Source of the DNA: Treponema sp.
GTDB lineage: Bacteria; Spirochaetota; Spirochaetia; Treponematales; Treponemataceae
Assembly (NCBI GenBank): GCA_024695475.1
Contig: JAILIC010000026.1
Location: 23,953 to 87,952 of the forward strand
Direction of reading: 5' to 3'
Length of the DNA: 64,000 bases
Part shown: positions 25,603-55,238 of the stretch, one piece after another
How positions within the stretch are numbered: the stretch's first letter is position 1
How the letters are laid out: every line of letters starts with the position of its first letter
The notes under the pieces: generated by a model
The model's input: the letters and a program-made list of their open reading frames with translations, nothing else
What the model was told of the DNA's origin: nothing
Database searches by the model: none
Position numbers and translations under genes: made by a program

Positions 25603-26883
25603 TTATATTGCTGCAAATCCATTTTCCAAATCCGCGATGATGTCGTCGATATGTTCTGTACCGATTGACAGGCGGATAGTACTTTGGGTAATGCCTTGAT
25701 CTGCAAGCTCTGCATCACTAAGCTGACTGTGTGTTGTACTTGCCGGATGGATGACAAGCGATTTTACATCAGCAACGTTAGCAAGGAGGCTGAATATCTT
25801 TAGGTTGTCAATAAACTTCCATGCTTCGTCACGACCTCCTTTAATCTCAAAGGTAAAGATGGAACCGGCACCATTGGGGAAGTACTTTTGATATAGCGCA
25901 TGATCTGGATGATCTGATAGTGACGGATGGTTGACTTTTGAAACTTTAGGATGGTTTTTCAAAAACTCAATTACCTTTTTGGTATTTTCGACATGGCGAT
26001 CCAATCTTAATGAGAGGGTTTCAACCCCTTGGAGCAATAAGAATGCATTGAATGGCGAAATGGTTGCACCAGTGTCTCTGAGTAAGATAGCCCGGATGTA
26101 TGTTACAAAGGCAGCTGGTCCTACTGCATCATAAAAAGAAATACCGTGGTAGCTCGGATTAGGATCTGCAATGTTTTTGTATTTACCGCTCTTTTTCCAG
26201 TTAAACTTGCCACTATCAACTATGATGCCACCGAGTGTTGTGCCGTGTCCTCCAATAAACTTTGTTGCAGAGTGAACAACGATATCTGCACCGTGCTCGA
26301 TTGGACGAATGAGGTATGGTGTACCAAATGTGTTGTCTATTACGAGTGGAATACCATGTTTGTGTGCAATATTTGCAATGGCATCGATGTCTGGAATATC
26401 AGAGTTTGGATTACCTAATGTTTCAAGATAGATTGCACGAGTATTTTCTTTGATGGCTTCTTCGACTTCAGTCAAATTATGTGCATTAACAAAAGTGGTG
26501 CTGATACCATATTGAGGAAGTGTGTGTGCTAATAGGTTATAGCTGCCTCCATAGATTGTCTTTTGTGCGACAATGTGACCGCCATTTGCAGCCAAGGCTT
26601 GGATGGTGTAAGAGATAGCTGCGGCACCAGATGCAGTTGCAAGGGCTGCAACACCGCCTTCAAGGGCGGCAAGTCGTTTTTCAAGAACATCCTGTGTTGA
26701 GTTTGTAAGACGACCGTAAATATTACCTGCATCGGCTAAACCAAAACGATCTGCTGCATGCTTTGCATTGTGAAAAACATACGAGGTTGTCTGATAAATG
26801 GGAACCGCACGAGAATCTGTTGCTGGATCTGCCTGTTCTTGTCCTACGTGTAATTGCAATGTTTCAAATTTATATTGTGCCAT
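25603..26883 (-). CDS. metY: O-acetylhomoserine (thiol)-lyase / aminocarboxypropyltransferase
   Basis: LQLHVGQEQADPATDSRAVPIYQTTSYVF, VVHSATKFIGGHG PLP lysine motif. Confidence 0.93.
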   Translation of the reverse strand: MAQYKFETLQLHVGQEQADPATDSRAVPIYQTTSYVFHNAKHAADRFGLADAGNIYGRLTNSTQDVLEKRLAALEGGVAALATASGAAAISYTIQALAANGGHIVAQKTIYGGSYNLLAHTLPQYGISTTFVNAHNLTEVEEAIKENTRAIYLETLGNPNSDIPDIDAIANIAHKHGIPLVIDNTFGTPYLIRPIEHGADIVVHSATKFIGGHGTTLGGIIVDSGKFNWKKSGKYKNIADPNPSYHGISFYDAVGPAAFVTYIRAILLRDTGATISPFNAFLLLQGVETLSLRLDRHVENTKKVIEFLKNHPKVSKVNHPSLSDHPDHALYQKYFPNGAGSIFTFEIKGGRDEAWKFIDNLKIFSLLANVADVKSLVIHPASTTHSQLSDAELADQGITQSTIRLSIGTEHIDDIIADLENGFAAI

Positions 26884-26922
26884 ACTGTTGTCTCCTGTAT
26901 ATGCCTCTCCCTCTGGTTATGT

Positions 26923-26957
26923 AAAATCTATGGGTATACAATAAGCCCATGATTTTT
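26923..26957 (-). promoter_or_regulatory. candidate attenuator hairpin upstream of metY
   Basis: minus strand AAAATCATGGGCTTATTGTATACCCATAGATTTT; arms AAAATCATGGG / CCCATaGATTTT. Confidence 0.4.
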
Positions 26958-27097
26958 ATAGGGTAGAGAATAATAAAATAATAGTGTGATACGTACAGAA
27001 CGGTGTGATACACTAACAGCTTTATAAAAACCGTACGCATACACTCCGACTGTTATATCGTTTTTAATGTTGATTTTTGGCTGAAGAAATTACAGCC

Positions 27098-27175
27098 TTA
27101 TTTGGAAAGACAACAGAGGCACATACGACCATTGCGGAAATTTTCACGGACAAGCTTTTCAAAGTAAATAACCAT
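27098..27175 (-). CDS. 25-aa Cys-rich leader peptide candidate
   Basis: minus strand AAGGAGGTACAATATG then MVIYFEKLVRENFRNGRMCLCCLSK-stop; strong RBS, promoter upstream, metY ~215 nt downstream. Confidence 0.65.
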   Translation of the reverse strand: MVIYFEKLVRENFRNGRMCLCCLSK

Positions 27176-27214
27176 ATTGTACCTCCTTAATAAAATCCGC
27201 CTTAGCGGTATTGT

Positions 27215-27237
27215 ATACCTAGTATTGCGCTAGGTAT
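27215..27237. promoter_or_regulatory. palindromic operator candidate 1 (metY leader)
   Basis: ATACCTAG-N7-CTAGGTAT perfect. Confidence 0.7.
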
Positions 27238-27249
27238 ATCTTATACTTA

Positions 27250-27283
27250 TTTATATTTTATATTACCTATTTAGTCAATAGGT
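27250..27283 (-). promoter_or_regulatory. sigma70-like promoter overlapped by operator candidate 2
   Basis: minus strand TTGACT-N17-TATAAA (27278 to 27250); ACCTAT-N7-ATAGGT at 27265-27283 covers the -35. Confidence 0.7.
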
Positions 27284-27395: not shown

Positions 27396-28097
27396 ATGGC
27401 ATACAAAATTCTCATAGCTGATGATGAAAACGAAGTTATTGAACTGTTAAAGCTGTATCTTGAAAAAGATGGCCATATTGTGTATGGCGCAAATGATGGT
27501 ATGACAGCGTTAGGAATTGTTTCTACTGAACAGTTGGATTGTGCTCTTTTGGACGTTATGATGCCGGAACTTAATGGATTTCAGCTACTAAAGAAAATAC
27601 GTGAAAAAAGTGCCATTCCTGTGCTCATGCTTACTGCCCGTGTAGCTTCCTCTGATAAAGTTTTAGGACTTGAATTGGGCGCAGATGATTATGTTACTAA
27701 ACCTTTTGATCCTCTTGAAGTGGTCGCCCGCATAAAAGCACATGTACGTAGATACATAGGTTCATATGATAGTGTATCCAGTACCGAGTCAAAGCAAAAA
27801 CAGACTATAGTATATGGGAACTTTACCCTTGATACTGACAGTTGTTCATTACAAAAGAATGGAACAGCAATCGAAGTTACTTCGACAGAATTTAAATTAC
27901 TAAAACTGTTTTTTTCGTCGCCTGGTAGAGTATTTACTAAGGAACAACTTACGGCTGCTGGCTGGGAACAGAATTCCTATGTTGAAGATAATAGTTTGAT
28001 GGTTGCTTTGAGTAAGCTTCGCAGTAAGATGGGAGAAGAAATCTGTATAAAGAATATCAGAGGTTTGGGCTATCGGCTGGAGAAAAAGAATGAGTAA
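27396..28097 (+). CDS. OmpR-family response regulator
   Basis: ILIADDENEVIELL, LLDVMMPELNGF, KPFDPLEVVARI; winged-helix C-terminus. Confidence 0.95.
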   Translation: MAYKILIADDENEVIELLKLYLEKDGHIVYGANDGMTALGIVSTEQLDCALLDVMMPELNGFQLLKKIREKSAIPVLMLTARVASSDKVLGLELGADDYVTKPFDPLEVVARIKAHVRRYIGSYDSVSSTESKQKQTIVYGNFTLDTDSCSLQKNGTAIEVTSTEFKLLKLFFSSPGRVFTKEQLTAAGWEQNSYVEDNSLMVALSKLRSKMGEEICIKNIRGLGYRLEKKNE

Positions 28098-29166
28098 GCT
28101 TAAACATATCGTAGCATGGCAAACATTAAAATATCAGTTTGGTTTTTATTGTGCAGTCTTTACGCTTATATGGTTTGTTGTCAGTTCTTTTTGCTGGTTG
28201 CTCATAGATATTATTATAAAAGGTACGACTCTTGAGGAGTCTAACGAATTATTACCGTTATATATTGTGGGGTCGTTGATTATCTTGGTGTTATGTATAC
28301 TGCCGTTTATGTATGTCATTAATCGGACAATCAGCAAACCCATGAAAAAGATTGTACAGGCAATAAATGAGCTGGGACCAGACAATTATCATATACATAT
28401 TGATGTTCCGACACCTCATGAGTTTGCCGAGATTGCACAGGCATTAAACTATATGTCCGCTAAATGGGAAGAAGCCGAACAAATCAAGGAAAGCACTGCA
28501 AAAGAGCGCACGCTCCTTTTTGCAAACATGGCACATGACCTTAAGACTCCTATTACCAGCATTATCGGGTATTCGAAAGCGCTCAAAGATGGCATGGTCA
28601 CTGATCCGGTAAAACAGAGTGAGTATCTTGATACGATTAACAAAAAGGCTGTCCGTATGAACGAACTTATTGATAGACTTTTTGAGTATGTCAAATTGGA
28701 AAGCCCTGAAAATATACTCCACAAAACTAATACAGATATTGCTGAACTTTTACGCACTTCTGTTGCAGATATATACACTGATTTTGAAAGGAATGGTATT
28801 ACACTTGATATCGATATTCCTGAAACTCCTGTCATTAAATGCGTTGATTCCCTTGAAATAGAAAGGGTATTTATAAATATTATGAACAATGCCATTAAAC
28901 ATAATCCGAGAGGAATTACTGTACGGGTGTCTATGGATCATAATGGCAAAGTTGTGATTGCTGATACAGGTACTCCTGTGGAGGATGACCTGCAAAAACA
29001 ATTGTTTAAGCCCTTTGTTTCGGGAGATGCTTCTCGGATGTCTAAGAATGGCAGTGGGTTGGGACTTGCCTTGTCCTATAAGATAATGAAAAAACACAAC
29101 GGCGATCTTGTTTTTGAGTCTCCCTATAATGAATATACAAAAGCATTTATTATTTGTTTTGCATAA
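28090..29166 (+). CDS. sensor histidine kinase (HAMP, HisKA, HATPase)
   Basis: FANMAHDLKTPITSIIGYSKAL H-box; NAIKHNPRG; SGLGLALSYKI. Confidence 0.95.
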   Translation: MSKLKHIVAWQTLKYQFGFYCAVFTLIWFVVSSFCWLLIDIIIKGTTLEESNELLPLYIVGSLIILVLCILPFMYVINRTISKPMKKIVQAINELGPDNYHIHIDVPTPHEFAEIAQALNYMSAKWEEAEQIKESTAKERTLLFANMAHDLKTPITSIIGYSKALKDGMVTDPVKQSEYLDTINKKAVRMNELIDRLFEYVKLESPENILHKTNTDIAELLRTSVADIYTDFERNGITLDIDIPETPVIKCVDSLEIERVFINIMNNAIKHNPRGITVRVSMDHNGKVVIADTGTPVEDDLQKQLFKPFVSGDASRMSKNGSGLGLALSYKIMKKHNGDLVFESPYNEYTKAFIICFA

Positions 29167-54947: not shown

Positions 54948-54997
54948 ATAATCCAAAATTATTATTCTTATTGTATAGTTACAATACAAAAGAATCA

Positions 54998-55090
54998 GAG
55001 CGCTACCTACGTTGGCATTATCCAAATCAGGTTTCAGGTCGAAATCGCAGTAGATTTCCTCTCAGCCGGATATATCCAGCTCCCTGGTCT
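54998..55090 (-). ncRNA. TPP riboswitch
   Basis: minus strand GGGAGC...GGCTGAGAGG...GACCTGAAACCTGATTTGGATAATGCCAACGTAGGTAGC. Confidence 0.95.
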
Positions 55091-55238
55091 TTTTATTTAT
55101 GGGGTGCCTCAAAAAACTAACGCCCTTTGAGGTACTTTTATGTCTTAATCTAAAATATATCTTTTAACCATTTTTGACAAGGTGGTTGCTATATAAAGGC
55201 TGTTGTTATCAGCTTGTCACCTGTGATAGAACGGCTTT

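Follow-up and report, generated by a model that had tools for sequence, protein, structure and literature searches.

In erm and cat leaders (e.g., ErmBL and ErmCL), leader RNA masks the ribosome-binding site (RBS) of the next gene, and a ribosome halted in the leader unmasks it. A halt before a stop codon is known from TnaC, which arrests at Pro24 followed by UGA (PMC8429421). Short ORFs with Cys codons have also been described, i.e., the Cys-run leaders that precede cys operons in Actinobacteria (PMC1262725) and the polycysteine uORFs of mycobacteria, which are leaderless (Canestrari et al. 2020, cited in PMC9094748).

Here we describe a leader ORF upstream of metY in a 64,000-nt stretch of Treponema sp. 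DNA (the window), together with its relatives in other genomes. As in TnaC and SpeFL, this is a short leader ORF whose last conserved residue is encoded by the codon before the proposed arrest, and the proposed clostridial arrest codon is followed by UGA, as in TnaC. The leader sequence is different, however, the genes concerned serve sulfur assimilation and uptake, RBS masking takes the place of an exposed Rho site, and the arrest and its ligand are putative. With the erm/cat leaders it shares leader RNA predicted to mask the RBS of the next gene, which a halted ribosome would unmask, but no antibiotic is involved, the ORF's own last codons would do the masking, and in Treponema the leader end would also mask the leader's own Shine-Dalgarno (SD) sequence. 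By analogy, a halt before UGA is best modeled on TnaC, and RBS unmasking on the erm/cat leaders. The mycobacterial and actinobacterial Cys leaders resemble the present one in being small ORFs with Cys codons close to the stop, in preceding sulfur genes, and in lacking an intrinsic terminator, whereas the strong SD, the long near-invariant core, the dispensable Cys residues, and the occurrence in other phyla set it apart. Nor is its start leaderless like that of the mycobacterial uORFs: an AAGGAGG SD and a 5' UTR precede it in the window, and most Treponema loci have a GGAGG-type SD.

The metY leader in the window

The initial annotation had reported a Cys-rich mini-ORF with an AAGGAGG SD, two hairpins, and metY downstream. 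For the mini-ORF, coordinates, SD, peptide, and stop proved exact when read from the window sequence, and both hairpins are present (Table 1). The identity of metY was confirmed by Pfam PF01053 (E 3e-136), and the metY cluster from related loci matches TIGR01326, O-acetylhomoserine aminocarboxypropyltransferase (E 1e-189). The probable promoter was missing from the output of the promoter scan, which accepts a second hexamer only if its sixth base is T. Divergent response regulator and sensor kinase genes (27396-29166, plus strand) begin about 220 nt from the leader. The window also contains a TPP riboswitch (54987-55096, minus strand), with a score barely over the Rfam gathering threshold; a tRNA scan of the whole window found none.

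TABLE 1 Features of the metY leader locus (positions in the window)
Feature	Position	Strand	Basis or remark
Inverted repeat ACCTATTGACTAAATAGGT over -35, candidate Rrf2/CymR-like operator	27265..27283	-	CCTA-N3-9-TAGG pattern
Probable promoter TTGACT-17-TATAAA	27250..27278	-	Read off sequence
Second inverted repeat ATACCTAGCGCAATACTAGGTAT	27215..27237	-	Operator candidate or 5'-UTR hairpin; stem found on other strand
Leader SD AAGGAGG, partner of tail in pairing	27182..27188	-	Sequence and pairing tests
Leader ORF, MVIYFEKLVRENFRNGRMCLCCLSK, 25 aa	27098..27175	-	TAA stop included; relatives found in other genomes
Conserved peptide core FEKLVRENFRNGRM, F5 to M18	27122..27163	-	Codon table over 169 loci
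Tail ATGTGCCTCTGTTGTCTTTCCAAA (MCLCCLSK)	27101..27124	-	Complementary to leader's own SD and metY RBS
Post-stop hairpin GGCTGTAATTTCTTCAGCC (GGCTG..CAGCC), directly 3' of stop	27079..27097	-	Minority of leaders have one
AAAATCATGGG..CCCATAGATTTT hairpin, upstream of metY	26923..26957	-	Sequence and fold
metY RBS and start AGGAGACAACAGTATGGCACAAT	26874..26896	-	Predicted masking by leader tail; duplex -25.1 kcal/mol; MFE fold
metY, O-acetylhomoserine sulfhydrylase, 426 aa	25603..26883	-	Proposed regulated gene

On the minus strand, the terminator scan picked out neither of the two hairpins as intrinsic terminators. An intrinsic terminator between leader and gene, as in attenuators of the trpL/hisL type, was found in only 3 of 104 Treponema-group and 1 of 43 clostridial loci and nowhere on the leader strand of the window. 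The intrinsic-terminator model was rejected on these counts, and such termination is unlikely. A post-stop hairpin of -5 kcal/mol or lower occurs in 35 of 118 Treponema leaders (12.6 expected from shuffles) and is far from universal. Post-stop windows permuted against the downstream SD or the tail showed no consistent pairing, some of it in the wrong direction. Rfam covariance models, covering riboswitches and T-boxes, gave no relevant match to the leader at either gathering or relaxed thresholds.

Distribution and conserved core of the leader peptide

The bare CxCC codon pattern is frequent in this genome (942 matches versus 249 for a reversed control), so that the Cys run alone is weak evidence and conservation becomes the decisive test. 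Conservation of the mini-ORF, set beforehand as that test, was borne out. A loose cutoff gave matches to the peptide in 17 of 40 relatives. It is present at E <= 0.1 in 90 of 200 same-genus Treponema genomes, 82 of them with a best E < 1e-3, and at E <= 1e-4 in 60 of 396 genomes of a single order of Clostridia, that of assembly L202. Named carriers are rumen and gut Treponema, including T. bryantii, T. porcinum, T. zioleckii, and T. saccharophilum, plus three clostridial assemblies. Other genera of Treponema's family and one genome from another family of the phylum also have the peptide, although most of the matches above 1e-3 in this outside-genus search are due to chance. Weak outside matches (L013 to L017, L022, L024, and L026) were rejected as lacking the leader. 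An even sample of the phylum of the Angelakisella metagenome-assembled genome (MAG), 398 genomes, yielded the peptide in no genome except this MAG, indicating that the clostridial spread is limited to part of the phylum.

For comparison we assembled 169 distinct loci, 118 from the Treponema group and 51 clostridial. These loci are related to one another, and since metagenome assemblies supplied most of them, an isolated odd placement may reflect a binning error. With F5 of the window peptide taken as position 0, the core reads F-E-K-L-[VL]-R-x-N-[FY]-R-[NFY]-G-x-M. All 169 loci keep R5, N7, R9, and G11, and 168 keep M13 (Met18 of the window peptide), the last conserved residue. The sole loss of this Met is in a clostridial leader before a MetQ-type gene (L245), which has ACG for ATG and reads FRFGRT-TGA. 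R5 and R9 draw on the full or almost full set of Arg codons (CGN and AGR), and Leu on CTN and TTR. The comparison shows that the core residues are selected as amino acids, and this sixfold Arg codon variation argues that the leader ORF is translated. Residues conserved at the amino acid level (F, R, N, R, G, and M) lie immediately upstream of the proposed arrest codon.

Chance does not account for the conservation of the whole peptide. Searches of Pfam and NCBIfam with the peptide found nothing relevant, and a literature search with the core motif strings retrieved no paper containing them and no description of this peptide family. We therefore regard it as a previously unnamed family common to gut Treponema and Clostridia.

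Conservation this high might be expected of a small protein that works in trans, for instance on a transporter or on MetY. Genomes contain up to five matches, however, several of them full copies before different genes; in the Treponema genome studied here, a second copy, 87% identical over 23 residues, precedes an amino acid (cystine-like) ABC binding protein. In addition, forms of 18 residues exist and the codons are selected for pairing with local SDs (see below), which makes a trans-acting protein highly improbable.

The variable tail and its pairing with Shine-Dalgarno sequences

Beyond M13 the leaders vary. Positions 14, 16, and 17 often hold Cys in both phyla, with at least one Cys in the tail of 109 of 118 Treponema-group leaders and of 31 of the 34 clostridial leaders having a tail. 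Consecutive Cys codons near the stop are found in most Treponema leaders and in few clostridial ones. Leaders without any Cys after the core number 9 of 118 in the Treponema group and 20 of 51 in Clostridia; in 17 of these clostridial leaders the stop, always TGA, comes directly after the Met (ATG-TGA). In Treponema, the own-SD base and the first base of codon 14 facing it occur as A/U 38, A/C 13, G/U 4, and G/C 15 times, so that the choice of Cys UGC or Arg CGC covaries with the SD base (Fisher p = 8e-5; p = 4e-3 after strict dereplication).

The initial annotation had proposed a Cys-responsive attenuator, in which shortage of Cys-tRNA would cause pausing at the Cys codons and alter the RNA structure before metY, the core only tuning translation. 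Cys enrichment at the three tail positions and the sulfur genes downstream are in line with this, as are the actinobacterial Cys-run leaders before cys operons (PMC1262725). The conserved run of codons for the regulated residue that marks trpL/hisL-type attenuators is missing, however: the invariant FEKLVRxNFRxGxM sits upstream of the Cys codons, the Cys run is not the conserved part, and some leaders in both groups have no Cys there. Moreover, the first Cys codon turns into Arg according to the facing SD base, RNA pairing governs codon choice, and a near-invariant core of about 12 residues would be superfluous. Across the leaders compared, Cys-tRNA sensing cannot be the general mechanism, and we consider a Cys-codon attenuator unlikely; since Cys is overrepresented at positions 14, 16, and 17 in both phyla, Cys-tRNA may nonetheless contribute to control in Treponema. 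What stands of the original proposal is a translated, conserved, cis-acting leader before metY and other, mostly sulfur-linked genes; sensing of Cys-tRNA by the Cys codons is not supported in the form proposed.

The tail in the window has two possible partners, the leader's own SD (-17.5 kcal/mol, a value reached by 13 of 7998 random 24-mers) and the metY RBS (-25.1 kcal/mol, reached by 4 of 7998); the control 24-mers were drawn at random from the window because dinucleotide shuffles of a 24-nt tail are too few to inform. As both pairings use the same tail, they are mutually exclusive. The probability that the metY SD is paired with the leader is 0.79, and the MFE fold also pairs the leader with the metY RBS.

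Among Treponema loci, pairing of the tail with its own SD averages -13.0 kcal/mol, versus -11.2 with swapped partners (0 of 1000 permutations as good, N = 93; z = -8.1 and -8.3 for two window choices). The natural tail codons out-pair synonymous recodings in 86 of 100 loci (p = 1.5e-15), with no such advantage for core codons 0 to 6. Pairing with the downstream SD is weaker and uneven in this group: z is -1.7 or -4.4 depending on the window, recoding gives p = 1.6e-3, and swapping gives p = 0.21.

In Clostridia, the 3' half of the leader pairs with the stretch that immediately precedes the start of the next gene, AAUUUCCG and CGAAUGUG facing CACAUUCG..AAAGGAAAU. Pairing of the leader end with the downstream SD gave z = -7.0 and -4.5, part of which reflects base composition, as a control segment gave -2.95. 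Natural codons were again favored over synonymous ones (p = 1e-4), and the probability of the downstream SD being paired with the leader is 0.48, versus 0.23 with swapped leaders (p = 2.8e-5). All 51 clostridial leaders have CGA as the Arg codon preceding the invariant Met, while R5 and R9 there use all six codons. CGAATGTG is nearly fixed in these leaders (e.g., L249, L253, and L309). Pairing with CACATTCG accounts for only part of the CGA/CGAATGTG constancy, and neither peptide nor pairing alone explains the invariant CGA codon.

The permutations treat related loci as independent and many windows were compared, some control windows reaching |z| values up to 3.8; we put most weight on the synonymous-codon tests because these hold ancestry and peptide fixed. 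On this comparative evidence, the codons at the leader end are additionally selected for SD pairing, with the leader's own SD in Treponema and that of the next gene in Clostridia. Pairing of leader RNA with the RBS, as in erm/cat-type translational attenuators, and with it the proposed unmasking are well supported for the window and for Clostridia but not for every Treponema locus, since downstream-SD pairing is weak there overall.

Two further readings bear on these pairings. One is an RNA-only switch, i.e., an unrecognized riboswitch or thermosensor in which the end of an incidental ORF masks the SD, as the strong RNA-level selection at codons 12 to 17 and the invariance of CGAAUGUG in Clostridia might suggest. 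An aptamer would not, however, keep the amino acid while Arg and Leu codons vary at first and third positions, and even the relaxed threshold gave no Rfam family match; we rate such a switch very improbable. The other is a Rho-dependent, TnaC-type leader, with a ribosome halted at the leader stop shielding a Rho-loading site. It would fit the scarcity of intrinsic terminators, and all 17 tail-less clostridial leaders end in UGA, like TnaC (PMC8429421), but the pairing need for UG also explains UGA, and selection for RBS masking is direct in Clostridia, where the median gap from leader to gene is only 56 nt. Moreover, TnaC halts with the substrate of a catabolic operon, whereas the genes here are biosynthetic or for uptake. 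This reading is quite unlikely, somewhat less so than the RNA-only switch.

Genomic context and proposed mechanism

The genes downstream of the leader (n = 157) are metY (110), MetQ/NlpA lipoproteins (21), URO-D/methylcobamide methyltransferase-like proteins (9), LanC-like proteins (6), cysK (4), and MetN (4), with others seen once or twice, among them a sulfonate/taurine-type permease, cystine-type binding proteins, and NifH-like and radical-SAM proteins. The URO-D/methylcobamide methyltransferase-like neighbors (L003, L030, L031, L042, L050, L052, L054, and L057, among others) possibly belong to a methyl-sulfur pathway. The LanC-like protein, of about 476 aa, was seen in Treponema L089, L018, L041, L071, L110, and L224. 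Because a conserved cis-acting leader precedes metY and other mostly sulfur-linked genes, regulation of sulfur metabolism via the leader appears very likely from the comparison.

A CCTA-N3-9-TAGG repeat lies within 150 nt upstream of 97 of 108 Treponema-group leaders (0.8 expected) and of 15 of 47 clostridial ones. At the promoter of the window (27283-27215, minus strand) and of most Treponema leaders these repeats are paired, one over the -35 and the second often downstream of the -10. They resemble Rrf2/CymR operators, and as in Rrf2/CymR sulfur regulons an inverted repeat covers the -35 upstream of almost all Treponema leaders; the paired repeats probably mark an Rrf2-type sulfur regulon. 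The leader is present in 10 of 17 same-genus metY orthologues; in several of the remaining ones this operator is present and the metY RBS comes next, with nothing in between. The stretch from operator to gene can thus carry the leader as an optional module. In the metY tree, Treponema and Clostridia are interleaved, and supported branches require at least four changes. This fits exchange among gut bacteria, subject to possible binning errors in the metagenomes and to one aberrantly long branch.

On balance, we lean slightly toward the peptide being a cis-acting, nascent-chain-arrest leader, i.e., a translational attenuator of sulfur genes. The nascent chain would halt the ribosome with the invariant Met (Met18 in the window) in the P site, as suggested by the conserved stretch ending at this Met, where it would fill the upper exit tunnel; the A-site codon would then be UGA, Cys, or Arg. 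The free leader end would mask the downstream RBS, in the window by pairing of the tail with GGAGACAACAGTATGGCAC of metY, and the halted ribosome, by covering the leader 3' end, would leave this RBS uncovered. In Treponema, the competing helix between tail and own SD would limit leader translation and compete for the tail. A sulfur metabolite would set or release the arrest, candidates being methionine, SAM, cysteine, O-acetylhomoserine, and O-acetylserine. Leader control would form a second layer beneath the Rrf2/CymR-like operator.

Few natural arrest peptides that sense small molecules are known, and to our knowledge none has been established for sulfur amino acids in bacteria. The more than 160 distinct loci from two phyla provide a ready alignment for toeprinting and cryo-EM, and they illustrate how a Cys run can mislead toward classical attenuation. 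Selection would act on the leader twice, on the peptide within the tunnel and on the mRNA as an anti-SD. The chances appear even that F-x-x-L-[VL]-R-x-N-F-R-x-G-x-M defines a new family of sulfur-metabolite-sensing ribosome arrest peptides, shared and exchanged by gut Treponema and Clostridia, whose last codons would be both arrest site and anti-Shine-Dalgarno sequence for the leader or the controlled gene.
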